Assembly (NCBI RefSeq): GCF_019649055.1
Contig: NW_026570515.1
Coordinates: 1 to 64,000 of the forward strand
Direction: 5' to 3'
Source of the DNA: Paramacrobiotus metropolitanus
Taxonomy: Eukaryota; Tardigrada; Eutardigrada; Parachela; Macrobiotidae
DNA: 64,000 nt
A program made the position numbers and the translations under genes. Positions 1-44,067 of the stretch are shown piece by piece. Numbering within the stretch: the stretch's first letter is position 1; each line of letters opens with the position of its first letter. The notes below the pieces were generated by a model. That model was given only the letters and a program-made list of their open reading frames with translations. It was not told the origin of the DNA and did not search any database.

Positions 1-650
1 AAGGTCATAGCGGTGAAACAAGCTGTCCCCATTGTCATTTCCGCATCCACGCCAAAGGAGCGCAAGGACAAACAGATTAGCGAAAAAGCGAAACGGGAGA
101 CGTCGCGTGAATCGGAGGCATCAGGAAGTGAGCCTTCAAGCACTTCGACGGTCAGTGCAAGGTCACATACAGATTCGAAAACGACACGATCAAGGACTAC
201 TGACCAAGAAGCAGGAGGCCTTGGATAAAGAACAAAAAACAAAAGAGCCGTTAAGATGAAAGGAAAGGTCAAAACAGCCATGAAAGTTGATGCAATGGCA
301 ATGATCAATTACGCTGAACCAGATGGAAGAGCAGGTGGACTTTGAAGGATGAAGAATTTGATGGTCAGATGATGATAATTTGAACACGGTCGATGAAATA
401 ATCAAAGCGTATAACGGAGCGGAGAATTTCACACGAATAAGAACAGCATCGGTGACATCAAATTTAAATCAGGCCTGAACGTATTTGAAGAAACAACATC
501 GTAGCTTCACTAAACAAAAAGTTCGACGTCGTATTGGAATTCGCGCGGAACGCAGGAAAACTTATACAGAAGCGCGAGTTTCTCGTATGAGGCCAAGTTG
601 TTCAGACCAGCCAGTTCGGATAAGGCATGACAACCCCGAATAGAAGCGGT
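1..650 (+). other. Left part of the unclassified element, partly coding
   Basis: The window opens inside this element. Positions 1-228 read as a Ser/Thr/Lys/Glu-rich peptide continuing from outside the window, similar in style to the disordered protein at 655-1533. The rest has no long frame and looks worn. AAAGGTCA occurs at 264-271 and shorter AAGGTCA copies at about 1 and 157, so the element's octamer signature already runs through this part. No known domain is recognised. Confidence 0.45.
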
Positions 651-654
651 CCCA

Positions 655-1533
655 ATGCGAGTAGAAAGGGCAATCGCGGGAATGACAAGCCCATTAGGGT
701 CAACAAGTCACCGGATTAGCCAATATATCAACGCAGTTTGGAACGACGGAAATGGAATGATAAAGGAGATCGACACGGCAACCGAGCGCGTATTGCCAAA
801 GTTGATTAAACAGAACGTCCTTGCCACGACAAACGCACATAAAGGACATCCGATCCGATATACGAGAGTCGGTCTAATACCACCGGAAAGACAGATCCAC
901 TGTAATATGTCCGACAGTCAGGACATGGAAAAGGTCACAGTTTCATCGAAGACAAAAGGCCCAATGGATTCGGAATCGGAAAGCGACGACGACGCTACTA
1001 TAACGGCTCCTTCTGGACCTGCGACAGAAAAAGGCGAACAGTCGAAAGGTCAAGAGACATCTGGAACTACCGCAGAAGATCAACCGAAAGGTCATGAGAC
1101 TTCAGATAAACGGGAGAAAGAAAAGGTCATGCTCCCGATGGATAAGGCAGCGGCAGAAGCTGAAGCGGATTCGGCGCGCCAGGTGTTTCACAAATCACTG
1201 TTCATACCATTAAAGGACGTCTTTGAGAAGGAACGATCGAAGTCGGTCGGCGATCTAAAAGGTCAAGAGACTACGCCACAAGAGGAAAAGAAAACAGTTG
1301 AACCGAAATCGGCGGGGTCATCATCAGGATCACTGGCAAAGCTGAGGATCGACGAGACAGCGACGGCTGACCCAACGGACTCGACATCCTCCCAGAAAAG
1401 TAGCGGTACACCGGCAAAGGAGGCTACAGATTACATGTTAGGGCCGGCATTGGACGTGAATAATCGTACATGGAACGAAGTCCAAGCTGCACTCCAGATT
1501 ATTCGGGAAAAGAAATGCTTGGGACAGACCTGA
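655..1533 (+). CDS. Acidic, disordered protein of the unclassified element
   Basis: A 292-codon intronless ORF. The first ~85 residues look ordered (mixed hydrophobic and charged). From the Met at about 907 onward it is rich in Ser, Glu, Lys and Thr with little hydrophobic content, so mostly disordered. Three related segments built on KGQET/KGHET coincide with the AAAGGTCA octamer (1045, 1087, 1258), while two other octamers (930, 1122) are read in another frame as EKV, so the DNA word is conserved independently of the protein. The true start may be 655 or about 907. No homologue is recognised; a phosphoprotein-like or scaffold role would be a guess. Confidence 0.5.
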   Translation: MRVERAIAGMTSPLGSTSHRISQYINAVWNDGNGMIKEIDTATERVLPKLIKQNVLATTNAHKGHPIRYTRVGLIPPERQIHCNMSDSQDMEKVTVSSKTKGPMDSESESDDDATITAPSGPATEKGEQSKGQETSGTTAEDQPKGHETSDKREKEKVMLPMDKAAAEAEADSARQVFHKSLFIPLKDVFEKERSKSVGDLKGQETTPQEEKKTVEPKSAGSSSGSLAKLRIDETATADPTDSTSSQKSSGTPAKEATDYMLGPALDVNNRTWNEVQAALQIIREKKCLGQT

Positions 1534-1958
1534 AAAGACAAGTGGCGATAAATACGAACGGAAGGTCGTCACTTAACATGACTGAACGAGTCTTGAAACG
1601 AGCTTATAAGGAAGGAAAGTTGGGATGTAAATATAACAAGGACAACAAAGTCGTCTACTACCTTCCGAAACAGGGCACGGAACGAACGCCCAGACTGAAA
1701 ATGGAACTGGAGGCCTGGAAGATAGCCATCACAGATGTAGCTCTGGACGCCATTGGCGGTACCAATGGCGCGTCATGGAATGACCTTTCAAACTTCATGG
1801 CCGTCAATTACGAGTTGGGAGATTTGAATATCGAAAGCGATAAAGAGTGGGTTAAGAATGCCGTTGAAGCCCTGATCGCGGACGAAGTGCTTCATATTAA
1901 GCCAGATGGCCGAGTCGATTTCAAGCCCTATAAACCATCGATGAAAGAATCCGAGTGA
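1470..1958 (+). CDS. Winged-helix-like small protein of the unclassified element
   Basis: A 162-codon ORF that overlaps the end of the preceding ORF in another frame; in-frame ATGs at 1515 and 1578 are alternative starts. The C-terminal half (AWKIAITDVALDAIGGTNGASW, then a second helix and VLHIKPDGRVDFKP) follows the helix-turn-helix-wing pattern of linker-histone-like or other winged-helix folds. The segment before it (TERVLKRAYKEGKLG... VVYYLP) resembles the last helix and wing of another such fold. A nucleic-acid-binding role is inferred from fold resemblance only; no family match is claimed. A 12-bp perfect hairpin follows 11 bp after the stop. Confidence 0.5.
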   Translation: MERSPSCTPDYSGKEMLGTDLKRQVAINTNGRSSLNMTERVLKRAYKEGKLGCKYNKDNKVVYYLPKQGTERTPRLKMELEAWKIAITDVALDAIGGTNGASWNDLSNFMAVNYELGDLNIESDKEWVKNAVEALIADEVLHIKPDGRVDFKPYKPSMKESE

Positions 1959-1968
1959 ACTAATATAG

Positions 1969-2260
1969 TGTAATATGCAGCGAGTAATGAACCCTGCATA
2001 TTACAGAAAAAAGCATAAAACAGTTTAAAACGAAAGAGAAAAAGTGTTACGAAAGGTCAACCGAAAGCAGTACTAGGACTAATAGAAAAGGTCACAGTAG
2101 TCAGAAAGTGCTGATAACGTGAGAAAGGTCACCACGTTACAGTGATAGAAAAGGCAGCAAGAGCTAGGAAAGTCTCAGCTCAGTAACGGAATAGGCGTAA
2201 AAATGATAGAAAAGCCTTGATATGGATAGGAAATGGAAGGATTAACGTGGAAAAGTTAAT
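1969..2260 (+). other. Chain of short hairpins between ORFs, octamer shown in loops
   Basis: Read directly: a perfect 12-bp stem at 1969-1980/1994-2005 with a 13-nt loop; GACTA/TAGTC at 2077-2081/2098-2102; a 7-bp stem TAACGTG/CACGTTA at 2115-2121/2133-2139; GAGCT/AGCTC at 2161-2165/2177-2181; ATTAAC/GTTAAT at 2241-2246/2255-2260, which ends exactly at the ATG of the 926-aa ORF. The loops of the second and third hairpins hold the full AAAGGTCA (2087-2094, 2124-2131). Another copy lies at 2052. This looks like a structured leader or intergenic RNA; its function is unknown. Confidence 0.6.
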
Positions 2261-5041
2261 ATGACGGATTGTTTTATAATTACAGATTCAAGCGGAAAAA
2301 TGGCACAGAAAGGTCAAGCCATTCCTAAACGTACGGGAACGGCGGCAGACATCGATCGGTTTACGGGCTACAATCCAAAGTGTCCGGACTGTCTACGTAA
2401 TAACAAAAAGGTTGATAAGAAATTTCCGTGCTACGCATGCATTCACAAGCTGGATGACCCACATATTGTCTCACTTGTTGGAGTCTCGGAAGCCAAACGC
2501 GGGAACCTGGATGTCTTCCGCAATCTGATAAGCGCAAGGAACTACGGCAGCATCCCAGTGGAAGAGCGAATGCTACTCGAGGATCGCTACCGGGAAGCGA
2601 TCCGGAACAACGAACCTGGTTGGGATGACACCTTGGAGCCGTTGAAGTGTCCACAGACAGACGCATATCGGAAGAAATTTGAAGAAGACCAAGCGAAGAT
2701 GCGAGCTCAGCAGATGGAAGACGAAATCCGCGCGAAAATTAATGCGGAAAATAAGAGAGCAAGTGAACAGGCCGCACGAGAGGGGCTGCCCAGCACATCG
2801 AGTTTAGTTGCACCTACGGGCACGGCCAGCCTTAATGAAGACGAAATGCAACTCGTACGACAGTCGCTTATCATTCAAATTGAAACGTTAACGAAGGATC
2901 CAGCTGCTATGTCAGACGAGATATTCAAAATGCTGTTGCGGGAGAAGAAACGACTGCAAGACGGGTTCGCGCCGGCACCATACATAAAGAAGGAAGTCGA
3001 AAGACGTATGGATGACCTACGTAAATCTCGCCGAACCGAAAGCGATGTGCTGCAAGCACTCAGAAGCTTCAAACGGGATGAAGGCTTCATACGGCCACGG
3101 TCGCCTCCGCATAGAGAAAGGTCACGCGGACATTCACGCGAAACTGAACGGACATCTGAGAGACGAAGCGAAAGGTCACGCGAATACTCTCGTGAGAGGA
3201 CACGTGATTACCGTAGCGAAAGGTCACGCGAACATTCTCGCGACCGAGATTACCGTGGCGGAAGAGGATGGGTACGCCATGGAAATGAGATAACGGAAAC
3301 GAGTATTCAGCGGAAAATCGATACGGCAAAGATTTTAGCAGCAACGAGAGGACGGGAAGAGCAACGGCGTGCGGAAGCATTCCGCACTGAACCTGAAAAG
3401 GAAGGCCATCAGGTGCCGTTGGAAGCTCCGTTCCGTAATCGCAATGTCAGAATGTCAACACCTGAAAGGTCATGGGACAAAAGACGCGAACAGACGCGGA
3501 ACCGAACACCCGACCCACAGGATAAAAGATGGCAACAGAGAGCTGCATTTTATGCGACCTTTGACTCGGGCGCAAGTAAAAGGTCATCAAGCACTGAACG
3601 AGAAGATTCACCCCCAAAGTATCAGCGGGTGGACTCAGTGGTTCATGTAGTGGATCCAATTGTGAGCGTCGTACGAGAAGACGATGCGATGGAAGGGACT
3701 AGTTTGATTGCGGAAACGTCTCAAGAGAACGTGACCCACCGACGAAATGTAATTTTGGATAGTGACCTTCAACCGGAACAACCGGCGAGTAACGAACCGT
3801 CGCAGCCTGAGTCAGGAGAGCGACGGGAACCAGAAGGTCAACGAGAACCGGATAATCATCGCCGGGCCGATCAGCGACAGAACTCCAGATTCGATAACCG
3901 ACAACCGGATACCATCGACATGGAATATAATACAACTGATATCGATGAGCAAACGGTCGAAATTTGTCGATACTTTGGACTTGAGCCGGATTCGGTTGAA
4001 GCCAACAAAATTGGCACAATTCTGAGACAGTTGAGCCAATTCCTACTTGACTCGGGTTACGCGAGAGAGATTAAACAAGGAGTGGAACAAGGACTTTTCC
4101 GTCGGTTATTCATCCACCGCGATTCAGCACGGGACTGTTATCTCCCTATCAGACGGAATGGGCTACACAGTTTGGTGGATTTGAGTCTATTGGATGTGCC
4201 GCTGGATACGACTGACCCAATTGGGATGACACAATTTTATTACACAGATTATCCCGAACGCCAAGAATACGTGGCTCAGTTTGTTCTACGACATGTGAAC
4301 CCAGCTTTCAAGTTGCTTGCAGCAAGGGCGTCGATAGGACTACAGGTGGATCCTAAGGACTATGCCGCAAAAAGGATGGGGCAAAAGGTCTTTGCTGCGA
4401 GACTGGCACATTATAAGACACAAAATCAATTGGTGTCTAATACCATGAAGGACGACATTCCACCGTTCTTCCGAGCTCATGTCGCCAAGTTGGGACAACC
4501 GATGGAACATATCAGCATAGCGCATACGGCTCGGAAGGCGCTGAAGAAATGTAAGATACGGATGGAAAAGGGCAACTTGACACAGCGCCACGCATCCCAA
4601 GTAGAAGAAAGGATTAATAAGATTAAAGATTCTCTGGGAAGCGACTACGTCGAACCGGTGGACGGAATCGAAACTTACATTGATGACTTCTTAGTGAAGA
4701 AAAGTGACCGTCGTCCAGACCGTGCGCCTAACCAGATGGGACGACGCGGCATCCGAAACCAACAGCTGCGGGATAATCTCGCCGACGTGCAGCGTCGATT
4801 GGCGGAAGACCCTGATAACCGCAGACTGCGACTCGAAGAGAATGACGCACGCCATCGACTTGAGGCGGTTAAGCGAAGTCGCCAAGGTAAAGGTCGTGGC
4901 CAGCGCGAAGTTGACCCGACAAAGGTCATGGAAGTTGACTCGACGGAACCAGTTGACCGAATTTCCGACCGAAACCAACCGGAAAGCGCTAAGAAACGCC
5001 GGCCGAGAGATGGCGAGGGCGATTCAAATGAAATGGAATAG
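2261..5041 (+). CDS. 926-aa Cys-box and RS-rich protein of unknown family
   Basis: One uninterrupted 926-codon frame, unlike the split host genes in this window. Residues 41-60 form a CX2C-X12-CX2C box, probably zinc binding. About 125-180 is a charged, likely helical stretch. About 280-340 is RS/RE-rich (ERSREYS, ERTRDYR, ERSREHS), built from a ~48-bp repeat that contains AAAGGTCA. About 560-800 looks globular (EICRYFGLEPDSVEANKIGTILRQL ... HVNPAFKLLAARASIGL). The last ~120 residues are basic and coiled-coil-like. I see no polymerase, protease or integrase motif. The start at 2261 is an ATG abutting a hairpin; Met14 is an alternative. It could be a structural or nucleoprotein-like product of a mobile or virus-like element, or an orphan host gene. 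Confidence 0.6.
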   Translation: MTDCFIITDSSGKMAQKGQAIPKRTGTAADIDRFTGYNPKCPDCLRNNKKVDKKFPCYACIHKLDDPHIVSLVGVSEAKRGNLDVFRNLISARNYGSIPVEERMLLEDRYREAIRNNEPGWDDTLEPLKCPQTDAYRKKFEEDQAKMRAQQMEDEIRAKINAENKRASEQAAREGLPSTSSLVAPTGTASLNEDEMQLVRQSLIIQIETLTKDPAAMSDEIFKMLLREKKRLQDGFAPAPYIKKEVERRMDDLRKSRRTESDVLQALRSFKRDEGFIRPRSPPHRERSRGHSRETERTSERRSERSREYSRERTRDYRSERSREHSRDRDYRGGRGWVRHGNEITETSIQRKIDTAKILAATRGREEQRRAEAFRTEPEKEGHQVPLEAPFRNRNVRMSTPERSWDKRREQTRNRTPDPQDKRWQQRAAFYATFDSGASKRSSSTEREDSPPKYQRVDSVVHVVDPIVSVVREDDAMEGTSLIAETSQENVTHRRNVILDSDLQPEQPASNEPSQPESGERREPEGQREPDNHRRADQRQNSRFDNRQPDTIDMEYNTTDIDEQTVEICRYFGLEPDSVEANKIGTILRQLSQFLLDSGYAREIKQGVEQGLFRRLFIHRDSARDCYLPIRRNGLHSLVDLSLLDVPLDTTDPIGMTQFYYTDYPERQEYVAQFVLRHVNPAFKLLAARASIGLQVDPKDYAAKRMGQKVFAARLAHYKTQNQLVSNTMKDDIPPFFRAHVAKLGQPMEHISIAHTARKALKKCKIRMEKGNLTQRHASQVEERINKIKDSLGSDYVEPVDGIETYIDDFLVKKSDRRPDRAPNQMGRRGIRNQQLRDNLADVQRRLAEDPDNRRLRLEENDARHRLEAVKRSRQGKGRGQREVDPTKVMEVDSTEPVDRISDRNQPESAKKRRPRDGEGDSNEME

Positions 5042-5066
5042 TGTTGACCTTTAGGATCACACTATT
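5037..5066 (+). other. Hairpin with TGACCTTT in its loop at the 926-aa ORF stop
   Basis: An 8-bp perfect stem, AATAGTGT (5037-5044) and ACACTATT (5059-5066), encloses a 14-nt loop containing TGACCTTT (5045-5052). The stop codon of the 926-aa frame lies inside the left arm. This is the first copy of the octamer in reverse orientation. Confidence 0.65.
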
Positions 5067-5227
5067 AAAAGGACGTCTACGGCATTTGTCGGTACGTCAC
5101 AAAGATGAAAATGGTGTTGTATAAAGGACGTGACACATGACATGTTAACATAAACTGTATTTGTGTATTTGTTGTTTGCAGCGTTTATAGCACAGAATTG
5201 CCTAAAAGAAATCATGTGGAGTATCTA

Positions 5228-5678
5228 TTGGGGTTGAAATTGATTCGGTCTATAAAGCCGGCCCCAAGGGAGTAGTTACGGCAGTTAGCCGGCTCTCCTC
5301 TCTAAGCGACTCAGTGTTATAAATGCACAAGAGAAACAACGGTAATCAAGCCGGATCTCTTGAATACGAAACGGGGCCACAAGCGGCGAAAAAGAGAAAG
5401 ACAACAGGTGGAATATTGATGAGGTTAACTTAATGCGGCAATCAGCCGGCCTCATTAGAGTTGTTACGGTAAACTGCGCCGGCACTCTTCTTAAGCGATT
5501 CAGTGTTAAAGGTGAAACGAGAAAAACTACGGTAATCGAGCCGGATTTCTCGTAGTAATATTAGCCACAAGCGGTGAACAAGAGTCAAAGATTTAAGGTG
5601 GAAATTTCATGGGGTAAACTCAATGCGGTAACTAGCCGGCCCCATCAGAGATGCTACGGTAAACTTGCCGGCACTCTG
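5228..5678 (+). repeat. Array of eight covarying hairpins, ~190-bp period
   Basis: Three hairpin types repeat in order. Type A: 5228-5267, 5418-5456, 5609-5645. Type B: 5268-5297, 5457-5488, 5646-5678. Type C: 5328-5362, 5517-5553. Matching types are 189-191 bp apart. Outer stems are 5-8 bp and differ between copies with both strands changed together: A TTGGGG/CCCCAA, ATGAGG/CCTCAT, ATGGGG/CCCCAT; B GGGAG/CTCTC, AGAGT/ACTCT, CAGAG/CTCTG; C CAAGAGA/TCTCTTG, ACGAGAAA/TTTCTCGT. Inside each is CGG, then 7-9 nt (often TAA...), then CCG, with a longer 5' than 3' internal bulge. The compensatory changes argue for selection on a folded RNA or single-stranded DNA. It matches no ribozyme or riboswitch I know. 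Confidence 0.8.
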
Positions 5679-5736
5679 GCCGCTCGAGGCATACTGAAGT
5701 TGGATGTGCGACAGAAAGGTCAAACTGCAAATTTCA

Positions 5737-6189
5737 CCAGGGAGGCAAGCGAAGTGCTTGAAAGCCGCAGAAAATCGGCTAAGTTCCTCCATGACCTTTA
5801 ATGGAAGTCGGATGACCTTTGGGATCATCAATTGCCCAACAGAGTCATCGTAATGGAATTCAAGTCGCATGACCTTTGGGACTACTAACCCAAAATGAGT
5901 CGCACATCGCAACGGATCATCTCAACAAATGATGACCTTTACCAGGGAGGAAGCGAACTACGCTTGTCTACATGACGTCCCTCCATGACCTTTATGGATC
6001 TCATTTTGAAGTCGTACAATTGATACGCACATTATTCCAAAGATTGAAGCAGTATTCTAAGTCGTACTTGATACGCACCAGATTCTCAAGCGGATTGTGA
6101 TGGAAAGTCGCACTATGGATGCGCGGAATTGCTCAACAGAGCGGAATGGATTAAAGTGCGGAAAACGGTGGACAGGACCTGTGACCTTT
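5737..6189 (+). other. Structured 3' tail with reversed octamers
   Basis: TGACCTTT recurs at 5792, 5813, 5870, 5933, 5986 and 6182, reversed relative to the coding part. Two related blocks, about 5739-5799 and 5941-5993, each run GGGAGG, a small AAGCG/CGCTT-type hairpin, then CCTCC-ATGACCTTTA, so they can fold into branched stems. Other short stems are GATGA/TCATC around the copy at 5813 and TTTGGG/CCCAAA just after 5870. Three copies of an (A)AGTCG(T/C)AC...GAT(A/G)CGC box lie at about 6012, 6060 and 6106. Composition turns AT-rich after about 6215, which may mark the element's end. Confidence 0.5.
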
Positions 6190-6214
6190 ACGAGTCAGAA
6201 ATGGAGGATCCTAG

Positions 6215-7290
6215 TCTACATTTGATTAATACTTTTGTTGATTTTATAACTGTTGATCTGTTTTATGATAGTATTTTTGTAATTGGATCTCTTTATTCAC
6301 ATTGTGTTAAAATGGAATTGTGCCTTATGGAATTGATGTGATATGATAAATGGAATAAGAGAATTTGATGTTTTCGAGCACACACAGACACCGGCGACCG
6401 TCTTCTCGTGGATTCGGGAGTGTGTCCAGCCTCACAGGAGCTCGGCATCCCCCCAGAGGCATGTGAGACCGGGATCACTAGCGTTCACGTCAGTGGCGCT
6501 AGGCGCTACGCCTTTGGATTATGGCCTGTGTTGTGTCTCGCTTCTGATTGGCTTGTGTTTTGTTAGTGGGCGCGGCATAGCACGTGCTGCACAGCGTTGC
6601 ACGCTGTTGAATGGGTTCCACGCTTTACGATCGAGCTGCGCCGATCAGTGTTGATTTTCTGTTGTCGGGATTTTCAATATTAAAAAGTCAGCAGTTTACG
6701 GTGCGACGTTTTGTGATTTCGCAATAGTTCGCAATCCAGATCGTATTGCTCACTTCCACGGGATAGATTCCGTTTCTGTCTCCGTCTGTGGATCTGTTCT
6801 GGATCTACCATTAGAGAGCCTTTGTGGCGAACCTACGGCGCCGTCGCACATACAATTAGAGGTGCAGCGCTCATCGATGATTAGAAGTACACGTTTATCT
6901 AATACTAACCATGAGTCACTGATAGCGTGACTACTTCCGAAATTATGCAATCCTGTAATAACCTAAGAATTTCTATTATTTCTGTTATTATGTTATCACA
7001 TCACAAAGTATAATTCACTACGAGTGTACAAACATGTGGCATAGTTTACTGGGAACAGTATTCACTACTTGCCGTTTACGACGCGGCTACGCTTACCTTT
7101 ACTTACTATTTACTTTCATGTTTTGCAGTTTATTGCTTAGTTTTCACTTGATTAGTGAAACGCAAAATCGGCTTACTATGTAAGGTTCACTATTTACTGC
7201 CACTAAGTCTCACATCACTAAAGAACCCTAAGATACTCGCATAGACGGAATAGCATCTGCACATACAATGGTATACAGATCTTGAAACGC
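6215..7290. other. Non-coding; possible worn LTR-like stretch
   Basis: No convincing gene. Part of it (about 6337-6830) has a loose LTR-like look: it opens TGTG, has an AT-rich TATA-like run near 6670, and is followed at about 6830 by TGGCGAACCTACGG, which would suit a tRNA primer-binding site. No second copy, clear CA end or target duplication was found, so this is only a suggestion. Positions 6950-7290 show nothing recognisable. Confidence 0.2.
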
Positions 7291-7530
7291 CGGGCAGCTT
7301 CAAAAGTTGCCTTTATCGTAGTATAACTTTAACGAAAGACCGTTATTCGGCCGCCAACTGTGTTGGAGCACAATGGGGTGACACAAATGATCGTTCCCGG
7401 CTTTCCATTTCCTCAGCACTCCAGGAAATGAGAGCAACAGCTACGCAATCTGAAATACATCATAAATCAGGTCAACAACAGGTCTCGCACAACATAAAAA
7501 CCATTCCAGCATTCCAGAAGCATTGAGAGC
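7290..7530 (-). pseudogene. Fragment of a Slo-type channel tail
   Basis: On the plus strand this stretch parallels 19600-19780, the start of the last exon of the Slo-like gene. Shared words include TTTATCGTAGTA, ACTTTAA, GGAGCACAAT.GGGTGACAC, TTTCCATTTCC and ATGAGAGCAACAGCT. The minus-strand reading gives only broken pieces of the exon (SYVSPDCAPPQL-type region), with stops. It is a decayed partial duplicate of the neighbouring channel gene or of a paralogue. Confidence 0.6.
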
Positions 7531-7837: not shown

Positions 7838-7970
7838 ACGACATTTCATAACTCGACATTTCATAACGTAACGTTTCACAACGTACATTTCATGACCGCA
7901 ACTTTTCACAACCGTAACTTTTCATGTCCGCAACTTTTCACAACCATAACATTTCATGACCACTGCATTC
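7838..7970 (-). repeat. 16-bp minisatellite, left inverted block
   Basis: About eight degenerate 16-bp units of the type CGTAACATTTCACAAC. The same unit, reverse-complemented, forms the block at 14991-15170 on the other side of the Gypsy insertion. Together they look like repeat-rich inverted ends of an older foldback-type DNA element. Confidence 0.75.
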
Positions 7971-8390: not shown

Positions 8391-8748
8391 GTGACCTTTC
8401 CTATTTCATTATGACAGTTCAGTTGACTTTGCCCGAATCGGATTATGCCATGTTGGATGCTAACGATCGCATTACCACTCTTCAACTCGACACTGATCGC
8501 CGTCTGCAGTTGTTGGAGCAGCAGTTGAAAGGTCAGCAGAACTGCTAAAATGCCTTCTATTTGTTCTAGTTTGACTGCCGCGGTCGGTAAAATTTTTTCT
8601 TGTTGCTCTTTTACCACTAAAGTCTTGCTGGCTGTAACCGTTTCTAGCGTTGTCGCTAACGGTGTACTCGGATACATGTTGTACCAGGCAAAGAGCAGCT
8701 AAATCTGCAGTCAAATTCTCGGTTAATCTTATCTTTTGTTTATATTGC

Positions 8749-10167
8749 ATGTCGAGGAGTTTCGATAAGTCTGAGAAAGCCGGCAAGGTTGCCGACAAAA
8801 CAAAAACCGCTACTGTCGCTACCACAAAAGCCGCTAGTAGTTCTAGCACACAGTCAGTTGAAGGTGACCTTTCAGGTGTAAGTGGCCCACACTTGCGTTC
8901 TGACGGTAAATCTCAGTTTTCAGAAGGACTGCAAGGTTCAGAATATCAGCGTAAACCTCGAACTGAAAAACCTGATACCGATTCGCGTAGTTCTTCGCGT
9001 AGTCATTCGGAAAGTACAGATACAGTACATGTTCGCCCGGTTGTACCGGACATAGTTGATTTAACTGATACTGTAATTGCTGAAACCGGCATTATGAGTG
9101 AAGCAACGATTAAAGCACTGACCGACGGGTTTCAGCGTCTGACAAATGTTGTCTTCGATGCTCCGTCAAGCGGTCCATTGCAGTGCATGGACAAGTTTAA
9201 ACCTTTTGAGCATGACGCTCGTGACTGGATGAAGGAGTTCGAGGAAGCGGCCACGCTGTCTAACTGGAAAGACGATATAAAAAAAGACCGTTTCTCGTTT
9301 TACTTGTCTGCTGGTGCAGCCAAGCAATGGTATTCACTCAAGCAGCCGTTTGCTACCTGGGCATTGTTGAAACAAGGCTTTTTAGCGGAATTTGTCAGTC
9401 AGGACGAAAAATGGGAAGTTCAAAGTAAATTACAAAAAAGGAAGTTCAAGCAAGATAGTGAAACTCTTGTTGAGTACTATTACGCCATTATTGACTTGTG
9501 CCGTAAAGTTGATGCCGCTATGGCTAATGACCTCAAAGTGCACTACTTGCTCAATGGTTTGAGTATGCAGCTGCGTAACCACGTTGCACTGCTTGATCCA
9601 CAAACTCCGGAAGATGTTTTGGCGAAACTGAAAATCCTTAAATTTGATGCGAGTAGTTCTGATGTTGATTCGCATAATGTTTTAGCTGTGATGTCGGCAG
9701 CCGGCGCGTCACCAAAACGCAAGAGTGATGAGGTCATCCCTGCCGGTGAGCAACCGGATACCGGTGTGTCACCGCCTTGTTCAAAGACGTATTCTCAGTC
9801 TGAACTGGATAACGCTGTCCGCGCTGCAGTCGAAAAGGCCATGGAAGTCGCGCGGGAGAACAATGCAGCACCGGTGCTCACTCAAACGTACGTTCGCGGA
9901 GGTGGACCACGTGGTCGATTCAATGGATACAGTGGACGAGGGCGTGGCCGTGGAGGACGAGGCAGACTACCTCATCATGGACCCGGTGGACCGATGCCAA
10001 CCGCGTCGCGAGACATCCCGGCGGAAACCACTGAAGAAGGTAAACGGTTTTGCACCTTCTGCAAACGTGAAGGACATCTGGAGTTCCGTTGCTTCGACAA
10101 GCGGCGTGCAATGCGGGACGTGCAGGCAAATGGCGGTGCCAGGGTGATCGGGGTGAGCGTAATTTAA
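8749..10167 (+). CDS. gag: Gag-like protein of the Gypsy element
   Basis: The likely start is the ATG at 8749 (MSRSFDKSEKAG); the frame is open further upstream. A Ser/Thr-rich N-terminal region is followed by a helical retrotransposon-Gag-like core (KFKPFEHDARDWMKEFEEAA ... WALLKQGFLAEF ... YYAIIDLCRKV). A Gly/Arg-rich stretch comes next, then one CCHC zinc knuckle, CTFCKREGHLEFRC. This is the usual nucleic-acid-binding capsid precursor of Ty3/Gypsy elements. Treated as a fossil. Confidence 0.85.
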   Translation: MSRSFDKSEKAGKVADKTKTATVATTKAASSSSTQSVEGDLSGVSGPHLRSDGKSQFSEGLQGSEYQRKPRTEKPDTDSRSSSRSHSESTDTVHVRPVVPDIVDLTDTVIAETGIMSEATIKALTDGFQRLTNVVFDAPSSGPLQCMDKFKPFEHDARDWMKEFEEAATLSNWKDDIKKDRFSFYLSAGAAKQWYSLKQPFATWALLKQGFLAEFVSQDEKWEVQSKLQKRKFKQDSETLVEYYYAIIDLCRKVDAAMANDLKVHYLLNGLSMQLRNHVALLDPQTPEDVLAKLKILKFDASSSDVDSHNVLAVMSAAGASPKRKSDEVIPAGEQPDTGVSPPCSKTYSQSELDNAVRAAVEKAMEVARENNAAPVLTQTYVRGGGPRGRFNGYSGRGRGRGGRGRLPHHGPGGPMPTASRDIPAETTEEGKRFCTFCKREGHLEFRCFDKRRAMRDVQANGGARVIGVSVI

Positions 10168-10239
10168 ACTACAGAGAGTAGCTAATATTCGGGGCGTAGC
10201 TACTCGTAACGAACCTCCCGACAAAGTGACCTTTCACCA

Positions 10240-13200
10240 TTTGCTGTATATCCTGTTTTCGAGGAGAGTGATGAGTTTTCACCGTCCTCACCGGTAAAAG
10301 CTAATGCATATGTTAATGGTACCCAGGTGGACACAATCGTAGATTCAGGTTCAGCAGTCACTATTATGAGTTTGGTGTGTGCACGCTCAGTGAATGCGTT
10401 AGTAGAACGCTACACAGGCCGTCTAATTAAAGGAGTTTCTGGTAAATTAGTGGAGCCGGTTGGTATCGCTTTAGTTGAAATTTCAGTTGCTAATTGCACT
10501 AGACGGATCAAAGTGTTGATACTTGACTCTTACGATCGTGATTTACTTATCGGAAATGACTTCCTAATGCAAACCGATCTGGTGATCGATTATGCAACGC
10601 GCAGTGTGCGTCGGTTTAATGACACGACCGGAGAGAAATTCCTACCGTGGTCGGCGCGGGATCTAGTGGTGTGCGAACGTGTCAGCATACCAGCTGGTCA
10701 CGTCGCCTGGGTGAAATGTAAACTTAGGCATAATACATTTCCAGGTCGTGTTCCCTCAGAAAATATGGATTTCATAACTAGTCCGAATGCAAAACTATTC
10801 GCACAAAAAGGTTTGCGAACGTCGCATTCCTTAATGAAAATTGTAAACAATTGTTGTTACATAAGTTGTGCTAATTTCTCACGAACACGGCAAAAGTTGG
10901 CGTTGAGCGAAACAATTGCGTCTGCCGCTCCGGTAACCATCGACGACGAAGCCGATGTGTGTCTTGTGACCAATCGTGCTGTTGATGACCATCCGTTGCC
11001 TGAGTTGAATATTAGTAGTCAATTGACACAGGGACAAGCCGAGCAACTTCGTGCAGTTTTGCGTAAGCACTGGAAAGTATTTCCTACGGCAGAACGGCCA
11101 ATTGGTGAAGTGACCGGTGTCACTCATCACATAGACACTGGTAGTGCTGCGCCGTTGTCGCAACCGCCTTACCGCAGGTCCTGGGCGGAACGCATAGTTA
11201 TCCGCAGCGAAGTTGATAAGATGTTACGTCAAGGCATTGTGTCGCCATCCTGTAGCCCTTGGGCGTCCCCTGTTGTTCTGGTGTATAAGAAGGATGGTTC
11301 CACCCGTTTCTGTGTTGATTATCGGCGCATCAACGCGATCACAAAGAAGGATGTGTATCCTATGCCACGGTTGGACGACGCGTTAGATCGTTTAGGTGGG
11401 TGTGCGTAATTCACTAATTTAGACATGGCGTGGGGATACTGGCAGATCCCCGTCGCCGACGCGAGTAAAGATCGCACTGCGTTTATCACACCCGATGGTT
11501 TGTACCATTTCAACAGAATGCCCTTTGGTTTGTGCAATGCTGGTGCTACGTTTCAGCGGTCAATGGACCGAATTTTACAAGAATTCAGGTGGCAATTTGT
11601 AATTGTTTACATAGATGACGTCTTGATCTACTCCAAGTCATTCGACGAGCATGTGGCTCACCTGGATGCGGTGTTAACTAAGCTTGAAGAAGCCGGGGTC
11701 GTGCTCAAGCCGTCAAAGTGTAAGTTTGCATCCGATAATACAAAGTACTTAGGTCATATTGTTGACAAAACCGGCATAAGCCCTGACCCGGACAAATTAC
11801 AGGCTATTGTTAATTACCCTGTACCAGAAAATGTGACTGATGTTAAATCTTTCTTGGGTCTTTGTTCTTATTTCCGTCGCTTTGTGCGTAATTTTGCTGC
11901 CATTGCTGAGCCGCTAGTGCGTCTTACACGTAAAGTGAGCCTTTTATCTGGTCGGATGAACAATATCGAGCTTTCGCAGCGTTGCAGTCAGCATTGATAA
12001 GCTCTCTGTGCTGACTCATTACGACCCGGCAGCTGAGTTAGAACTGCACACAGATGCGGCGCTCTAGGCATAGGGGCTGCGATATCAAAACTGACGTCGG
12101 TGAACGTGTTTTGGCATGTTGCAAAACTACCGACATATCGCGGTGAATCTTTCAGGACTTATCAATTGCATGGCAAAAAGAATTACGTGTCGGCGATCTG
12201 GTATGCTGACGTTCGACTTCGCGCCGGGTATTCTAAGTTTAGCAAAACTTTAGTGCAGCGGAATCGCGCTATTCAGTGACCGAGCAAGAGTGTCTTGCTG
12301 TTGTATGGTGTATTAAAAACTGCGTCCGTATTTGCATGGTAAATGTTTCCGTGTCGTCACCGACCATTGCGCCTTATGTTGGCTAATGTCGCGACGAGTG
12401 CTGGCCGGCCGGTTGAGCCGGTGGGCAGTATATCTGCAGGAATACGACTTTGTTATAGTCTATCGTAGTGGCAAAAAACATCAGAATGCTGATGCGTTGT
12501 CGCGGCATCCTGTTGAAGCCGCCGACTCAGCTGATGTTGACTTCGATATGCTAGTGGCCATGACCGCTTCCGCTGACATGTGCGCAGAGCAGCGGCTAGA
12601 TGAAAAAATTACTCGTATAGTATCACGGATGACAGCTGGTGCAGTCGGTAAAGATACTGTACGTTATTGTCTTCGCGGTAATGTATTATACCGAATCGCT
12701 CTCGTAGACGGAGAAGAAGTGTTGTTGTTGGTTGTACCAACACACCTTAGACGTCAAATTTTGCATGCTTGCCACGATGAAATGACGTCCGGTCATCTTG
12801 GCTTTTGGCGCACATATAACAGATTGCGCTCACGGTACTACTGGCCGCGCATGCGTGACCATGTACGTAAGTATGTACGTGGTTGTGAACACTGTCAGTT
12901 TCGGAAAGTGAATAAAGAAAAACCGGGTGGTTTAATTGAAAGTATCCCGGTGGGTACAGCATTTGAGATGATAGGCATTGATGTTTTTGGCCCGTTGCCT
13001 GTCACAGCAAAAGGTAATAAGTACATAATTGTGTGTACAGACTACTTGACCAAGTATGTTGAAACAAAAGCAGTTCCGGCACAGACTGCTGGTGCAGTTG
13101 CGAATTTCCTTGTGTTACAAATTATTCTGCGACATGGTGCGCCGGCAAAAATGTTACCTGATCAAGGTGGTCCTTTTTTGTCAGCAGTTGTAAAAGGTGT

Positions 13201-14021
13201 CACAGAATTGTGTCAGGTACGACATCTAAACACTACTGCCTACAACCCGGCTTGCAACGGGTTGACAGAAGCGTTCAATAAAATACTAGCTGTAATGCTC
13301 AGCTTGTACGTAAGCGATAACCAGAAAGATTGGGATGTGTACCTCCCATACGTTACTTGCGCGTATAATACGAGTACGCAAGCTTCGACCGGCAAGACGC
13401 CGTTTTACTTGTTGTACGGTCGCGAATGCCGCTCTGTACTTGATGCCACGCTCGGTGCACTACCTACTAATAATATCAACAACTTGCACGAGTACAGTAA
13501 ACCATGGTTGAACGGATTAAACTGGCAAGCCATGTGGCTAAGGCCAACATCGATCAAGTGCAGGCAGGTTACATGTTGACCGGCAACTTGAAACGCCAAG
13601 ATCGTGAATTCAAAATTGGTGACCTTGTCTTGCTGTACACACCAGTAACTCGGTGGGTTTGTCTCCTAAGCTGGTGGCACATTATTTTGGTCCTTACCGA
13701 ATTGTAAACCGCGTGTCAAAATTAAATTATGAAATTGAATCCATTCGTAACAAACGCGGAAAACGTGTATTGACTGTACACGTAAAGCGTTTGAAACTAT
13801 TCACGCAACCGTTAACTGACGTCGACCTTAATAGCGATTCTGATTCGCAGTGGAGCATCCCGATGGATGCCGTGGATCCGGAGCTTAAGGACGATATTGA
13901 GCGCGACGTCGTTGTACCATCCACTCCTGCGCACGAGCCCCCGTCGCCAATGGAAGATGATGATCATCGACCCGTTATCCGGACACTCCGGAACCGTGCC
14001 ATCCGCAGTTCATCACCTTAA
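10240..14021 (+). CDS. pol: Pol region of the Gypsy element
   Basis: Domains in order: aspartic protease with TIVDSGS near 10335; reverse transcriptase with KKDGSTRFCVDYRR near 11290 and the YIDD active site near 11610; RNase H with TDH and the LSRW...NADALSRH tether near 12360-12510; integrase with an HHCC zinc finger near 12760-12900 and recognisable D, D and E positions (IDVFGP, LPDQGG, GLTEAFN) at 12980-13270; and a GPY/F module near 13690. The order RT-RH-IN is diagnostic of Ty3/Gypsy. The region is interrupted and treated as a fossil. Confidence 0.9.
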
Positions 14022-14990: not shown

Positions 14991-15170
14991 AAATGTCACG
15001 GTTGTGAAATGTCCTGGTTATGAAATGTTACGGTTGCGAAAAGTCTGGGTTGTGAATTGTTATGGTTGTGAAAAGTCTGAGTTGCGAAATGTTACGGTTG
15101 TGAAACGTCCAGGTTGTGAATTGTTACGCCATGAAACGTTACGTCATGAAATGTCGGGTTGTGAAATGTT
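14991..15170 (+). repeat. 16-bp minisatellite, right inverted block
   Basis: About eleven degenerate units of GTTGTGAAATGTTACG, the reverse complement of the block at 7838-7970. It is followed at 15200-15285 by two ~36-bp copies of GTAAGAAACCGTTTTA.GAAACGACT. Confidence 0.8.
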
Positions 15171-35914: not shown

Positions 35915-38900
35915 ATGGCATCGATTTATGCTGGTGCGTTTCAACAGCAGCTTTCGCCAGCAAATTTCCGAAGATACCGTGTAACGCTAAAGACAACGGC
36001 GAATGAGAAGACGGACTTGCATTTATGTGGTAGTCAGGCAGATCTACAATTCGAAAACTCCGGTTTTAAGCATTTGGCAACTATGAAGTTCGCGTTACCT
36101 ACGGCTGCCGAACTGACAGTAAGAACAACCTCAGGGAGCGATTCGAGAACGGATTTCCAGCAATTAAGAACAGATTTACTGCCGCTTGTTAAACTCTTCG
36201 TCGATGGTATAAAAAGCGATGCCGTGCAGTGCTATTACGGAATAGATTACACATTTCCAAAGCCAAGCGCGCAACGGAATTTTTACATTCTAGCCGAAGA
36301 CTGCGCAGGTAAGGACCCATAATACGAGTATTATAGGTAATCCCCATGCTTTGCTTTAACGATTTTCCATAGCCACGATTGGACAATATTTAACTAATTT
36401 ACGTTCTTTAAACTAATTCTTTTCTTAAACGCAGAACAACTGACGGGTTTAATTTCATTGAATATTAACTACGGCTAATTTTGCCACAATATGCGAGGCG
36501 AGATAAAACAGATGAATTAAATTAATAAAGCAAAAATCGACACGAAAAACCTACGACGCACAACTTTCGACATTTTCCAGATTTGACTACCGTAGCCGCG
36601 CACACATCTTGAACTACAGAATTTACGAACAGCGCGCGCGCAGCGTGTGCATTGCATTAACGTTATTAAAAAAGCTGAAACATGATAACTGTTAAGTGGA
36701 CAAATTTAACGCGAAAAAGGTAATAAATTTATTGTTATCTTGTCGACCGAAGCGTAGCGAGGTCCTCTATGTTCAGAATTAATGGGAAGCGTGATGTCCG
36801 TTCGTCGGTCACCGCCACCAAATGCACACATGCACGGTGCATTGGAAGAGATGCACCAGTGCGCGGTGGCCGTATATACTCACATCCCATGTAACTGGCG
36901 ATGTCCGTTCGTCGTTCACCGCCACCAAATGCACATATGCACGGTTCATTGGGAAGAGATGCAACAGTGCGCGGTGGCCGTATATACTCACATCCCATGT
37001 AACTGGCGATGTCCGTTCGTCGTTCACCGCCACCAAATGCACATATGCACGGTTCATTGGGAAGAGATGCAACAGTGCGCGGTGGCCGTATATACTCACA
37101 TCCCATGTAACTGGCGATGTCCGTTCGTCGGTCACCGCCACCAAATGCACATATGCACGGTTCATTGGGAAGAGATGCACCAGTGCGCGGTGGCCGTATA
37201 TACTCACATCCCATGTAACTGGCGATGTCCGTTCGTCGTTCACCGCCACCAAATGCACATATGCACGGTTCATTGGGAAGAGATGCACCAGTGCGCGGTG
37301 GCCGTATATACTCACATCCCATGTAACTGGCGATGTCCGTTCGTCGGTCACCGCCACCAAATGCACATATGCACGGTGGCAGTGGGAAGAGATGCACCAG
37401 TGCGCGGTGGCCGTATATAGTCACATCCGATGTAACTGGCGATGTCCGTTCGTCGGTCACTGCCACCAACAAACCTTAAGGACAAATACACAAGCACGGT
37501 AACCGTACTCGCTTGCACCCCGAGTAACTTGTTTTGCCAGTTCGTTGGTCACCACCATCTGATCTAAAAAAGGATGGGCACCGTAGCCACATACACTCAT
37601 GACCTATAAAAATTGTGGTGATGGAAACATTTCGAATCTGTTTTCCAAATGCTAACAATGCGCTTGGGACTGACAGAACCATCAGTCGGTTAAAAAAAAA
37701 TCCGTCGTACGTAAATTTTTCTCTTCCAGGATTTTGTAATAACATTAATAAGTTTAATATCCTGTCAACGTTGCCCGTCAAGGCTACAGACAGAGGTAGA
37801 CCATTTGACAAAACAAAAAGTCCTACCGGCAAAGCTACTGGACCCGCCCTCTCTCCTAGCGGCTTTAAATTCTTATTGCGTGTATATGATCTCAACTGCA
37901 TCAATTTTGAGAGAACCGGACCGGCAAAAACGCCCAGCAGATGTTTTTGCTGGCTTTATCCTTTATACGATCGCTAGAATGGGAACTCGTTGGCCACCAT
38001 TGGTAAAATTATTGAGATGACTGCCCCGTAGTAAAGAATAATGTGTGACCTTTTGGACCATTCCACAAGTGCTGTTACTGCCTAACAAAAGTGATAACAT
38101 CGCATTATTAATCAAGACGGGATTGTTCTTGCAGAGTAACCGTAAAAAACCTGGGATGTGAGAGATGTTGTTGAAATATTATATACCACATGCGTCCGGT
38201 GTTAAAGACTGCAACATCTAGAGTAGAAAAGTTTGTCTAGCAGGGACAACAATATTTCTAAAATAAAACAACATGATATCTGTTTGGTATAGCAGAAGTT
38301 ACATTTAAAAAAACCATTCGCTTGCGAAAACAAAGTTATTAGAGCAGTGGACGGATTTTCTGTTACATAGACGGCTTTCCCGATTACATTGGCAATCTGG
38401 TAGTGCTGTTGTGAAAATAGCTCAAATTGCTTTACCATTAGAGGCTTTGCCCAAACTATTCCAATTTAGACACATATTCCTGCTACGCTTCGGTCATGCA
38501 GTGCCCGCAAAAAGCGAGCGCACTTTCCTAGTTAATAGATTTGCTGCTGCAATCTAGCTTATTTCTTAGAATAAAAATTGTTTGTTTTAGGCGTGCCGTT
38601 GGATGAGCATATGAAAACGAAAAGCGTTCCAGTCAGCGAAAACGAAGTTATCGTGTTTGCAAGGCAAATACTGGAAGGACTCAGGTTTCTTCATGGTCAC
38701 CAAATCATTCACAGAGACATAAAAGGGGAAAATCTTATCATTATGGCGGCCACAAAAACGCTTAAGATAATAGGTCTAACGATGATAAAACATTTTGATG
38801 GAACGCAGACACCGCCCAGCACTTTGAGAAACGCGGCAGGCACTGTTCCATTTGTCTCACCCGAGATGGCAGCACTATCGGCTGGACTGCAAAGCCAGCC

Positions 38901-39681
38901 TTCTTATGTTGGACGGAAAACGGACATCTGGAGCTTCGGCTGCGTGGTAATACAAATGATGCAGAAAGGTCAACCTCCTGTATTTGCCAGAACGGATAAG
39001 GACGTAATAAAACCAAACGCCATGTCAGATAGTTTCCAAAGTGTGCATCGGTATTTTGGACATGGTTACAGACCACAGCAACCCAAGACGTTTGCAGGCA
39101 GTTCGGTCGATATTTCGTCTGAATTTCTAAGCTTATTGAACGGTTGCCTGGCCGTAGACGTTAGCGAACGCTCATCTGCCTCGGAGCTTCTGGACATGCT
39201 GCTCACTTCCTACTATTATCTATTTTGCCCAAGAAGGCCGAAATTTGTTGGGGCAGAAGAGCAACGGTTTCACGCAGAACGGTACAGCTTGTTACCCGTC
39301 CAGGTGAATACGGATGGAAACTCAGTTTTGCCTCAACAGCAAGCTGTTACTTTAACGGATGTAGAGCAACAAGAACGCAGACAGTACGATCTTCTTAAGA
39401 AAGTCACGCTACCGGAAATGGCAAAAGGTACCATGACCTGCGATTGCGACGTTACAATCGTGTCCTCACGGAGTACCGGGGACAGCGACTATGAAATTGT
39501 ATTTGCAAATAAAAAGAGAATGTATGAGATGCTCATAAAAGACGTGGCACGAAGGACCAAGCATATAATTCAGCACTTACATGTTACGTCGGTGTTATGC
39601 GATAACCTGCTGGAAATACATGTCTTTACGGAGCACGGAGGTAAGATACAAGAAATTAGGGCATTTTATTCTGTGAAATAA
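35915..39681 (+). CDS. MEKK-like pseudokinase 1
   Basis: Two exons, 35915-36308 and 38591-39681 (donor GTAAGG, acceptor TTTTAG, phase 1), giving 494 aa. Exon 1 carries a worn N-lobe: no GxGxxG, a possible ATMK in place of VAIK, and a C-helix to hinge stretch VQCYYGIDYTFPKPSAQRNFYILAEDCAG. Exon 2 has HRDIKGEN (intact catalytic loop), but the DFG position reads IIGLT, then GTVPFVSPEM, TDIWSFGCVVIQM and the C-lobe. About 150 residues of unknown type follow. HRDIKGEN with WSFGC is STE11/MEKK-like. Loss of the DFG Asp predicts no normal phosphotransfer. The first intron holds a 108-bp satellite. Confidence 0.75.
36793..37460. repeat. 108-bp tandem satellite in kinase 1 intron
   Basis: GATGTCCGTTCGTCG recurs at 36793, 36900, 37008, 37116, 37224, 37332 and 37441: six full units plus a partial one, with a diverged piece near 37530. 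Units differ at a few sites (CGGTCAC/CGTTCAC, CAACAG/CACCAG). The period is a multiple of three, so several frames on both strands stay open for over 180 codons; these are not genes. Confidence 0.95.
37540..38590. other. Rest of kinase 1 intron
   Basis: No gene or clear repeat recognised apart from the diverged satellite edge. Confidence 0.45.
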
Positions 39682-40034
39682 CAAGTATGAAGCCATAACC
39701 CAGTTCCTGGTGACTGTTTGCGTTGCGGAATCACCTCGGCCATGTTTCCCTTAAATATTTTGTCGCCAGCTGCGCTGCCATAACCTTTTGCTAGTTTGCC
39801 ACTGGCGCAATATTTTTGGATAGATTACGAGAAAAACGGTAGGACCAGAATCCCTGTTACTGCACTTGTCCATTTTTGTATAACAGGCCTGGTTGTTGCC
39901 TGTGTGGCATATCTTAGCTTTAACGTAAATTTGTAATCGAGGTTTGCTACGCCCGGTAAGTGTTGATTTATTTATGCTGTACACTGTGTAACGAGTAGTT
40001 CACTGCACTTTTGACCAGTGACAGTGAGACAGCT

Positions 40035-43000: not shown

Positions 43001-44067
43001 CTAGCAAAAGGGGTGCAAACGAGTAGTAACTCCGCTTAAGACTGTTATACGACGTTATACGTTGTATAGTGTGTTAAGAGTGTTATACGTTGCAGCGTGC
43101 ACTGCTTTGGTAGGCGCGGTAGAGAAGAGTACTCAAAGGTAAGTTGTATGAGATCTCTTTCACTTTACAATAGCTTTTCTTATTGAAAGAATCATTTCCA
43201 GGTATTTCCGCAATTCTAAAAACTGCCATGTTTTACCGCTTGCCACTCGCGAAATGGCACAAGCCATCGCCGGTGGCAATTGGCAGTGGCAGGTGCCATT
43301 GCCACCTTTTACACCCTGCCAGTACCGGCAGAGTACCGAGCACCAGAATTTAAAGTATCGGGTTTTGCTGTTTTGCAGGGGGTGACTTAGAGTTTCTGCT
43401 AATAGAAATTAAGGAGAATGGTGGTCGGCTTCAATGGAGAACAGCATTTCAGTATGCGATAGAAATTACAGAAGGCCTCTCTTATCTCCACAAATGCGAA
43501 ATAGTGCATGGTGACCTAAAGCCTAAGCATGTGTTAATGAAACATCTGGCAAACGGTCACATGAAAATGCTGATAGGAGATTTGGACGACTTTATCGAAA
43601 TTGGTGGGCATGCTGCAAGTTCCGGTGGAATTGGCACCTATCAATACATGTCACCCGAATTGCTACGAGAGCGGTTAGGACTGAGTGACAAGATGCAAAC
43701 CATTGGGACAAAAAGTGATATTTGGAGCATGGGATATATTATATTGCGTTTAGCTTTATTTATTGAAGGTCAGTATGAGATAAAACTTCACCCAGCATGC
43801 CACTCTCCAGAGTCAGTCGGAGACAATATTCATTCGGATCATAAAAAGAAGGTCAACGAAGTTTCAGACCTGTATATTGTTAAGAAAATTATGGACCGCG
43901 ATTCGGATTACATCTCGTCCGTTTTGTCCAGCATTCCTTTACGGACGGAGGCATGGAAACAGGCAGCCATATGCCTCGGACGGTGCCTGGATTACGACCC
44001 TGAGAAGAGGATGGCAGCAACCGATTTAAGCGATGAACTGCGTAGCCTGAAAGATGCACTGTTATAG
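40035..44067 (+). CDS. Tandem pseudokinase-kinase 2
   Basis: Exons 40035-40826, 40902-41220 and 43379-44067 (donors GTATGT, GTGCGA; acceptors TTTCCAG, TTTTGCAG) join in phase to 599 aa. Domain 1 starts at the hinge without an N-lobe. It has HKDIRCFNVL (HRD altered, catalytic Lys replaced by Arg), TGF for DFG, then TDIFSLGCTVIEM. Domain 2 has a good N-lobe (GAGAIGKVY, NVAIKI, C-helix Glu), hinge MDYCDG|GDLEFLL split by a phase-1 intron, HGDLKPKH for HRDLKPEN, GDLDDF for DFG, GTYQYMSPE and SDIWSMGY. Domain 2 could bind nucleotide; domain 1 probably not. An upstream exon with another start cannot be excluded. The 2.16-kb second intron is mostly a transposon. Confidence 0.75.
41278..43330. mobile_element. 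~2-kb inverted-repeat DNA element in a kinase intron
   Basis: CAGGGTGTAAACGGTGGCA at 41288 is inverted at 43300-43318 (TGCCACCTTTTACACCCTG), and the arms continue for ~80 bp (CAAGCGGTAAAACATGGCA). GGTACTG words outside extend them, so limits are approximate. CAGGG ends recall hAT elements, but no 8-bp target duplication or transposase is visible. Inside are direct repeats: GGCGGCATAGTATGTTTCCG at about 42238 and 42450, and GGCCTATCTGGCCCAACACA at about 42210 and 42291. Confidence 0.75.

Follow-up and report, generated by a model that had tools for sequence, protein, structure and literature searches.

Location of the hairpin array in a giant LTR retrotransposon

A row of hairpins with a near-invariant CGG...CCG core is located near the beginning of the 64,000-nt stretch of Paramacrobiotus metropolitanus DNA analysed here (the window), and raises the question of what kind of sequence carries such a row and what the hairpins may do. 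Eight hairpins had been noticed in a preliminary description made from the letters of the sequence. All eight were found at the place described, the last one ending at 5679 (Table 1), and the three hairpin types distinguished there were recognized as A, B and C in the order A-B-C-A-B-C-A-B. The same description spoke of eight copies of a ~190-bp repeat. The period was right (190 bp by TRF), but the copy number was not: TRF gave 2.1 copies, and the eight hairpins are thus contained in ~2.7 A-B-C units, the unit itself not being present eight times. Outside the span described, 30 bases past the stop of the last open reading frame (ORF), a further hairpin built on the same plan (D) brings the number to nine.

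Table 1. Features of the array and of the element that carries it. Positions refer to the window except in the last row; z, folding score of the single hairpin against shuffles; bits, score in the covariance-model search.
Feature	Position	Strand	Description
Element, 3' part	1..6815	+	Flanking DNA repeated from contig start to ~6815; remainder off window
Last ORF	2261..5041	+	926 aa as listed; start in other copies is ATG 13 codons in
Hairpin D	5072..5098	+	GACGU-C-ua-CGGC AUUU GUCG-G-u-ACGUC; 57-63 of 65 rows paired per position; z -3.04
Hairpin A1	5228..5267	+	UUGGGGU / GCCCCAA outer stem, large 5' bulge, CGGU...GCCG core; z -1.21
Hairpin B1	5267..5299	+	Outer stem with 1-nt bulge, UA bulge, CGGC AGUUA GCCG; 38.3 bits; z -2.96
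Hairpin C1	5328..5362	+	CAAGAGA / UCUCUUG, CGGU AAUCAA GCCG; 55.1 bits; z -4.20
Spacer motif CCACAAGCGG	5377..5386; second copy 5565-5574	+	Common to 5' leader of the five copies read
Hairpin A2	5419..5455	+	AUGAGGU / GCCUCAU; pair 5422-5452 is AU, GU or GC across copies; z -3.01
Hairpin B2	5457..5488	+	AGAGU / ACUCU, CGGU...GCCG; 36.5 bits; z -1.31
Hairpin C2	5517..5553	+	ACGAGAAA / UUUCUCGU; pair 5523-5547 is AU or GC across copies; 56.4 bits; z -3.37
Hairpin A3	5609..5645	+	AUGGGGU / GCCCCAU; z -1.61
Hairpin B3	5645..5679	+	UCAGAG / CUCUGG, CGGU...GCCG; 39.4 bits; z -3.85
3' LTR	6462..6815	+	354 bp
Leader motif TTCAGCGAA	L015 ~7290-7400; also L100, L101, L102, L019	- (L015)	Three times per leader

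The window does not extend to the frames for a gag-like protein, protease, RT/RNase H and integrase or to the 5' LTR; these parts were read in other copies. Pfam searches of the C104 copy identified an aspartyl protease in one frame and RVT_1, RT_RNaseH, Integrase_H2C2 and rve in the next, which is the pol order protease - RT - RNase H - integrase of Ty3-type (Metaviridae) elements. This copy spans 24.5 kb (76666-101208), the C43 copy 21.6 kb. The two LTRs were 100, 99.7, 100, 96.4 and 99.7% identical in the five copies compared. A 4-bp target-site repeat was present at C43 and C213 and at neither C104 nor C8; no ends were located for C91. The sequence TGGTAGCAGAGCC directly follows the 5' LTR, and no tRNA matched it. 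Since the flanks are repeated, and other copies contain Ty3-type pol frames and an LTR pair, the array can be assigned to a giant Ty3-type LTR retrotransposon of P. metropolitanus, whose 3' UTR it forms between the last ORF and the 3' LTR. The preliminary remark that no transposon end with this core was known had missed this LTR-retrotransposon 3' UTR, together with a copy of the hairpin in the 5' leader (see below). Among the papers listed for Paramacrobiotus and tardigrades, judged by title and abstract opening alone, none describes the element. A striking row of hairpins in raw eukaryote sequence can thus turn out to be the 3' UTR of a transposon.

The common core and its distribution

The typical hairpin consists of an outer stem, a 5' bulge, a 4-bp CGGY/RCCG stem and a loop of mostly 4-7 nt. 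A tabulation of the core covered 65 arrays together with six further loci and the five leaders. Three positions ahead of CGG there is a pyrimidine, C or U, in 211 of the 220 B cores, in all 127 C cores and in all 60 D cores; the two intervening bases are UA in 202 of the 220 B, 93 of the 127 C and 59 of the 60 D cores. Because this pyrimidine can pair with the G that follows CCG (a G required by the search expression itself), the usual motif can be written as Y-[UA]-CGGY-loop-RCCG-G, in which UA forms a two-base bulge on the 5' side, four pairs below the small loop. Type A (197 cores) has a bulge of ~10-12 nt, an A three before CGG and a U-G closing pair. A G-U third pair (GUCG for GCCG) was seen in D, in 14 B cores and in 3 A cores. 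The 5' bulge had been described as retained; its size is not fixed: where type A has ~10-12 nt, types B, C and D have two bases, mostly UA.

The number of exact cores per array was eight in 42 of 52 arrays and seven in another eight; one array had nine matches to the expression, and L074 contained five hairpins. The core pattern TACGGTAAN{2,6}GCCGG had 374 exact matches in the genome compared with 24 for the reversed control, and 116 array candidates were found (169.8 Mb, 533 contigs), 40 of which were scored and were 93-100% identical. An exact core search in viral contigs gave 0 matches. With Rfam, no family reached the gathering score in the whole window, none was found in two leaders, and at a lax threshold the array region matched just snoU49 and rliB, far below their cut-offs (E ~1). 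The statement that no ribozyme or riboswitch with this core was known is in agreement with these searches.

A covariance model of 38 positions was built from the B and C hairpins. In the window it recovered all five hairpins of these two types (36-56 bits); of A2 and A3 it picked up the bare core, at ~12 bits. Distant families were matched at 13-60 bits, the weakest matches having E above 0.1. In L079, whose protein is 70% identical, D, a further hairpin, A1, B1, C, A3 and B3 were present, whereas three hairpins were found in each of L093 and L095, the most distant families read; L094, like L079, has more. The outer arms in L093 and L095 read, for example, AUAGGAG/CUCCUAU and UUAAAG/CUUUAA, and the core is kept. 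When two L093 hairpins were folded singly, one was no better than its shuffles (z 0.00) and the other had a z of -3.00.

In the copy scanned, the motif is restricted to the sense strand of the element. In this 21.6-kb C43 copy, eight sense matches fell in D plus the array, one in the leader and a chance-like one in the integrase-region frame; a scan of the antisense strand of this copy gave no match. The sense strand of the element part of the window contained D, the eight hairpins and one match at 2343, inside the ORF, and the remaining 57 kb of the window a single match, on the minus strand.

Pairing and folding of the hairpins

The helix score summed over the nine outer stems was 56.0, compared with a mean of 28.5 in shuffled flanks (sd 3.3, maximum 45.5), and was reached by none of 20,000 shuffles. 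In a cross-pairing matrix of all arms, six of the nine rows had the hairpin's own 3' arm as the best partner. The B hairpins account for the three rows that failed, because single B arms find equally good or better partners among C arms or other B arms. At the level of types, the true pairing of 5' and 3' arms ranked first of 24 permutations.

Folded singly, the nine hairpins of the window had z values between -1.21 and -4.20, with A1, B2 and A3 modestly better than their shuffles (z -1.21, -1.31 and -1.61). The whole 481-nt region did not fold beyond shuffles (z -1.16; 15 of 100 shuffles were as good), and neither did its antisense strand. The finding is thus a row of local hairpins and not a large fold. 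By eye, the A1 bulge and the C loops could form loop-loop pairs.

Conservation of the stems across copies

Pairing was counted in an alignment of 51 of the 52 arrays, from which L074 with its five hairpins was left out; it had 81 pairs and 4122 cells, the outermost pair of B3 being omitted on account of a base common to B3 and A3. In this alignment 99.2% of the stem cells were paired, as opposed to 33-51% when the partner was slid by 1-3 columns. Independent mutation of the stem halves, which the preliminary description had named as evidence against a conserved structure, is not what the copies show. Mean pairwise identity, determined in 65 rows including L074 and skipping columns with fewer than 40 letters, was 0.977 in the core, 0.957 in the outer stems, 0.891 in the internal loops, 0.867 in the spacers and 0.842 in the apical loops. 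The least constant outer stem was that of B2, whose two innermost pairs were paired in 49 and 53 of the 65 rows.

Compensatory change had been the main argument for a selected structure, and this argument held in part. Double-changed cells were more frequent than expected (12 against a shuffle mean of 1.9, reached in 0 of 500; 0-3 in all six slid controls). The covariation score of 0.021 exceeded that of the shuffles (0.016; 0 of 500 reached it), but half of the six slid controls lay above it, at 0.024, 0.033 and 0.024. Two-sided changes were present in only 2 of the 81 pairs of the 51 arrays, a number that 197 of 500 shuffles reached, and further pair types were not enriched in these arrays (453 of 500 shuffles). 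The two clean cases are the pairs 5422-5452 of A2 and 5523-5547 of C2 (Table 1), the latter with 44 AU, 19 GC and 2 gaps in the 65 rows; the D pair 5073-5097 was mostly AU and GU in these rows, with one GC. Tree-null tests in the style of R-scape were not significant: the best proposed pair had E 1.75 in a first grouping, in which A2 was put with B, and E ~2.4 in a second test, which covered hairpins of types B and C and of the leader but none of types A and D. In the second set (337 hairpins kept, 82 distinct) 346 of 410 outer cells paired, compared with 34-72% in slid controls. A lack of significant R-scape covariation had been put forward as a sign against selection on structure, and this is what the two approximate tests found. 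With covariation being thin, the structure rests on the pairing of unlike arms in the same register and on conservation. On the + strand these results, namely the pairing frequency and the higher conservation of core and outer stems than of loops and spacers, support the selected structure that had been proposed.

Compared with the window, the copies C130 (ORF region 91%, array 85.5%), C42 and C1:844634 have an array that has diverged further than their ORF region, whereas the array is the less diverged part in C55 (ORF region 78%, array 88%) and C327 (80% and 87%). The higher divergence of the array in several copies points to module exchange between copies. The A2 hairpins of L075, L076, L077 and L078 have a 5' bulge of the A1 type, which is exchange between array units.

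The hairpin in the 5' leader

A hairpin of the form UACUGU-ugcua-CGGCAGUCAGCCG-gc-ACAGUA was present in all five leaders read (C43, C104, C8, C213 and C91), in each case downstream of the 5' LTR and ahead of the gag-like frame. In C43 it is located ~410 bases past the left LTR; the outermost pair is lost in C104 and the loop is shortened in C91. A smaller CGG/CCG stem follows it in four of the five copies. Twenty-one of its bases (UUGCUACGGCAGUCAGCCGGC) occur also in B1 of some arrays, with different outer arms, and the spacer motif CCACAAGCGG is likewise common to leader and array. A 32-mer of the leader hairpin had 68 sites in the genome at up to 3 mismatches (45 exact), and its reversed control 0. 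Among the 68 sites, a two-sided change of the outer stem from A-U to G-C was found in two, and the outermost pair was lost by one T-to-C change in 12; a pair is broken at some of the other sites as well.

The leader of all five copies contains another motif, TTCAGCGAA, three times, each time as the middle or loop side of a small hairpin whose loop is AGC. The three hairpins of C43 read GTCTTC-AGC-GAAGAC twice and GGATTC-AGC-GAATCC once.

Product of the last ORF

A C4 motif, CPDC-x12-CYAC or a close form, was found in six of the 12 proteins compared; the other six begin downstream of that stretch. The product of the last ORF contains an Arg/Ser-rich stretch as well, with 16-23 Arg in the richest 60 residues. 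The C4 motif and this stretch may point to RNA binding. Pfam gave no family match for the last ORF, and NCBIfam, applied to two relatives of its protein, one weak and unrelated match. The structure model of the C-terminal part was of low confidence (mean pLDDT 48). Since there was no Pfam match and the model was poor, the putative RNA-binding role rests on these motifs. All 11 of the listed relatives of the protein are from P. metropolitanus.

An 8-mer repeated throughout the element

The 8-mer AAAGGTCA, or TGACCTTT, occurred 99 times in the 21.58 kb of the C43 copy (557348-578927), where ~0.66 occurrences are expected at equal base use, and six times in 45 kb of other DNA of the window. In the genome as a whole it had 42,562 matches compared with 15,522 for the reversed word. 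The sites have unlike flanks and lie, by eye, in different reading frames (K-G-H/Q, K-V-T/N, R-S). Between positions 1240 and 1834 of the C43 copy, ahead of the gag-like frame, there are 15 sites, all in minus orientation. Of 25 sites in the element part of the window (1-6200), each of six other copies has kept 20-24 exactly (80-96%), whereas other 8-mers were kept at 47-76% in the same comparison. The word is identical to the NBRE half-site of NR4A receptors, and the field looks like dense transcription-factor half-sites of this kind or another selected word. Where the L093 and L095 3' UTRs by eye appear homologous to TGACCTTT, the letters differ, for example ATGACCA, so that the field may be a lineage-specific gain. 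A literature search for AAAGGTCA with retrotransposon yielded nothing related by title.

Possible function of the array

How invertebrate LTR elements export very long unspliced RNA is little known. The near-invariant core, the variable paired arms, the many copies and the presence of the hairpin at both ends of the presumed RNA speak for a protein-binding site, and judging from their sequence the hairpins look like docking sites that may aid export or packaging of the element RNA. Every hairpin would present the same core to one RNA-binding protein, and with eight or nine of them in a row and another in the leader the genomic RNA would carry a multivalent binding platform. Either a host export factor or an element-encoded protein could be the binder; the first candidate is the product of the last ORF with its C4 motif and Arg/Ser-rich stretch. 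Hairpins of the HIV TAR type or those bound by phage coat proteins also have a short bulge, a short upper stem and a small loop; the likeness to the array is in size only.

The explanation to which we give most weight, although at somewhat less than even confidence, is that the array is a cis-acting RNA element of the 3' UTR, most likely one for nuclear export of long unspliced RNA (a CTE/RRE-like candidate). According to passages of the respective papers, the region between env and the 3' LTR of a primate retrovirus works as an RNA transport element (PMC11379458), and the CTE of MPMV is located at the 3' end, with the direct repeats of RSV as a further example (PMC12789967). The array at 5228-5679 has the placement of such elements, with the ORF ending at 5041 and the LTR at 6462-6815. 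It resembles the MPMV CTE, the RSV direct repeats and SERV-K MER11, as these are described in the passages concerned, in lying at the 3' end by the last ORF or 3' LTR and in being repeated or multi-stemmed. It differs in having no Rfam match, in consisting of eight or nine small hairpins with one core each and in recurring in the leader, and its export activity is a prediction. A second precedent is Cer1 of C. elegans, whose genomic RNA requires for its export the element's own protein CERV, with an essential cysteine loop; no RNA target site of CERV is named in the relevant part of that paper (PMC10309623). Cer1 and the present element are both invertebrate LTR retrotransposons with an extra protein that has a cysteine motif and possibly acts on the genomic RNA. 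In Cer1 the protein is required and its RNA site goes unnamed in that part of the paper, whereas here an RNA array was seen and the protein is a candidate. The 3' placement, the CERV precedent and the motifs of the last ORF product put export first and packaging second.

The predicted role in export is weakened by the leader copy, which would fit packaging equally well. Also speaking against it are the non-significant tree-based tests, the slid controls above the true covariation score, the pairs lost at some leader sites, the L093 hairpin that folds no better than its shuffles and the higher divergence of the array in several copies. If the hairpins were a psi-like signal, they would be putative Gag-binding sites selecting the genomic RNA, with the leader as the primary site and the 3' array as an amplified second cluster. 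Bulged stem-loops between the 5' LTR and gag are what retroviral packaging signals look like, and this is where such signals are placed in the relevant passages of PMC8396678 and PMC12789967. The leader hairpin was found there in five of five copies, accompanied by the three TTCAGCGAA hairpins. The main cluster, unlike that of retroviral psi, is at the 3' end, and it would be contained in any RNA ending at the 3' LTR, spliced or not, and would not by itself distinguish genomic RNA; we regard packaging as possible, if rather unlikely. Slightly more doubtful still is the broader proposal of a novel modular RNA-protein system, in which Y-UA-CGGY...RCCG-G hairpins, eight or nine at the 3' end and one in the leader, would let an element-encoded C4/RS protein export or package the 24-kb RNA. 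The row of stem-loops might instead guard the RNA against exonucleases or nonsense-mediated decay, like the RSV stability element. A very long RNA with several ORFs is expected, the position is again 3', and part of PMC10309623 provides the RSV precedent; simple hairpins with a 4-bp core of invariant sequence suggest recognition over a mechanical block, which makes stabilization improbable.

Two further explanations seem to us very improbable, each to about the same degree. Arrays of repeated sites may act in the DNA, and the inverted repeats would then be bound by a protein as DNA, in an enhancer or insulator, or take part in reverse transcription or integration. Other gypsy-type elements have tandem arrays of binding sites, and the present element is dense in another DNA word, AAAGGTCA. 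However, the outer arms differ among the hairpins and still pair in register, the core is asymmetric with its bulge on the 5' side, and the motif was found in the sense strand only of the copy scanned. The array could also be made of ordinary 3'-UTR tandem repeats that have no function of their own and are alike through recent copying. The copies are young, with 96.4-100% identity between the two LTRs in five of them, the number of units varies, as in L074 with five hairpins, and the tree-based covariation tests failed; a figure legend in PMC6431247 likewise marks tandem repeats in the giant gypsy-type element Burro. Against mere copying, conservation is higher in stems and core than in loops and spacers, changes in the stems mostly preserve pairing, distant families retain core and pairing, and the leader contains the same hairpin. 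As described in parts of the same paper, Burro of planarians and Ogre of plants are, like the tardigrade element, very long LTR elements with extra ORFs, and the Burro legend shows the repeats; the tardigrade element differs from both in its short 354-bp LTRs, its hairpin array and its occurrence in another animal phylum (PMC6431247). Because a compact, repeated candidate site and a candidate protein are present in many young copies, the question of a role in export is directly testable.

Other features of the window and of the C43 copy

By eye, a frame resembling a non-LTR endonuclease/RT (L013, C43:554394-557348) adjoins the right LTR of the C43 copy. The window contains a second, smaller Ty3-type element with gag, protease, RT and integrase at 8650-14021, which is flanked by 16/32-bp minisatellites (7841-7961 and 14991-15169) that look mutually reverse-complementary. 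Several protein-kinase-like ORFs, four of them with Pfam kinase matches, lie on both strands at 38578-48809. A 108-bp tandem array at 36793-37469 (6.3 copies, 97% match) is open in several frames.
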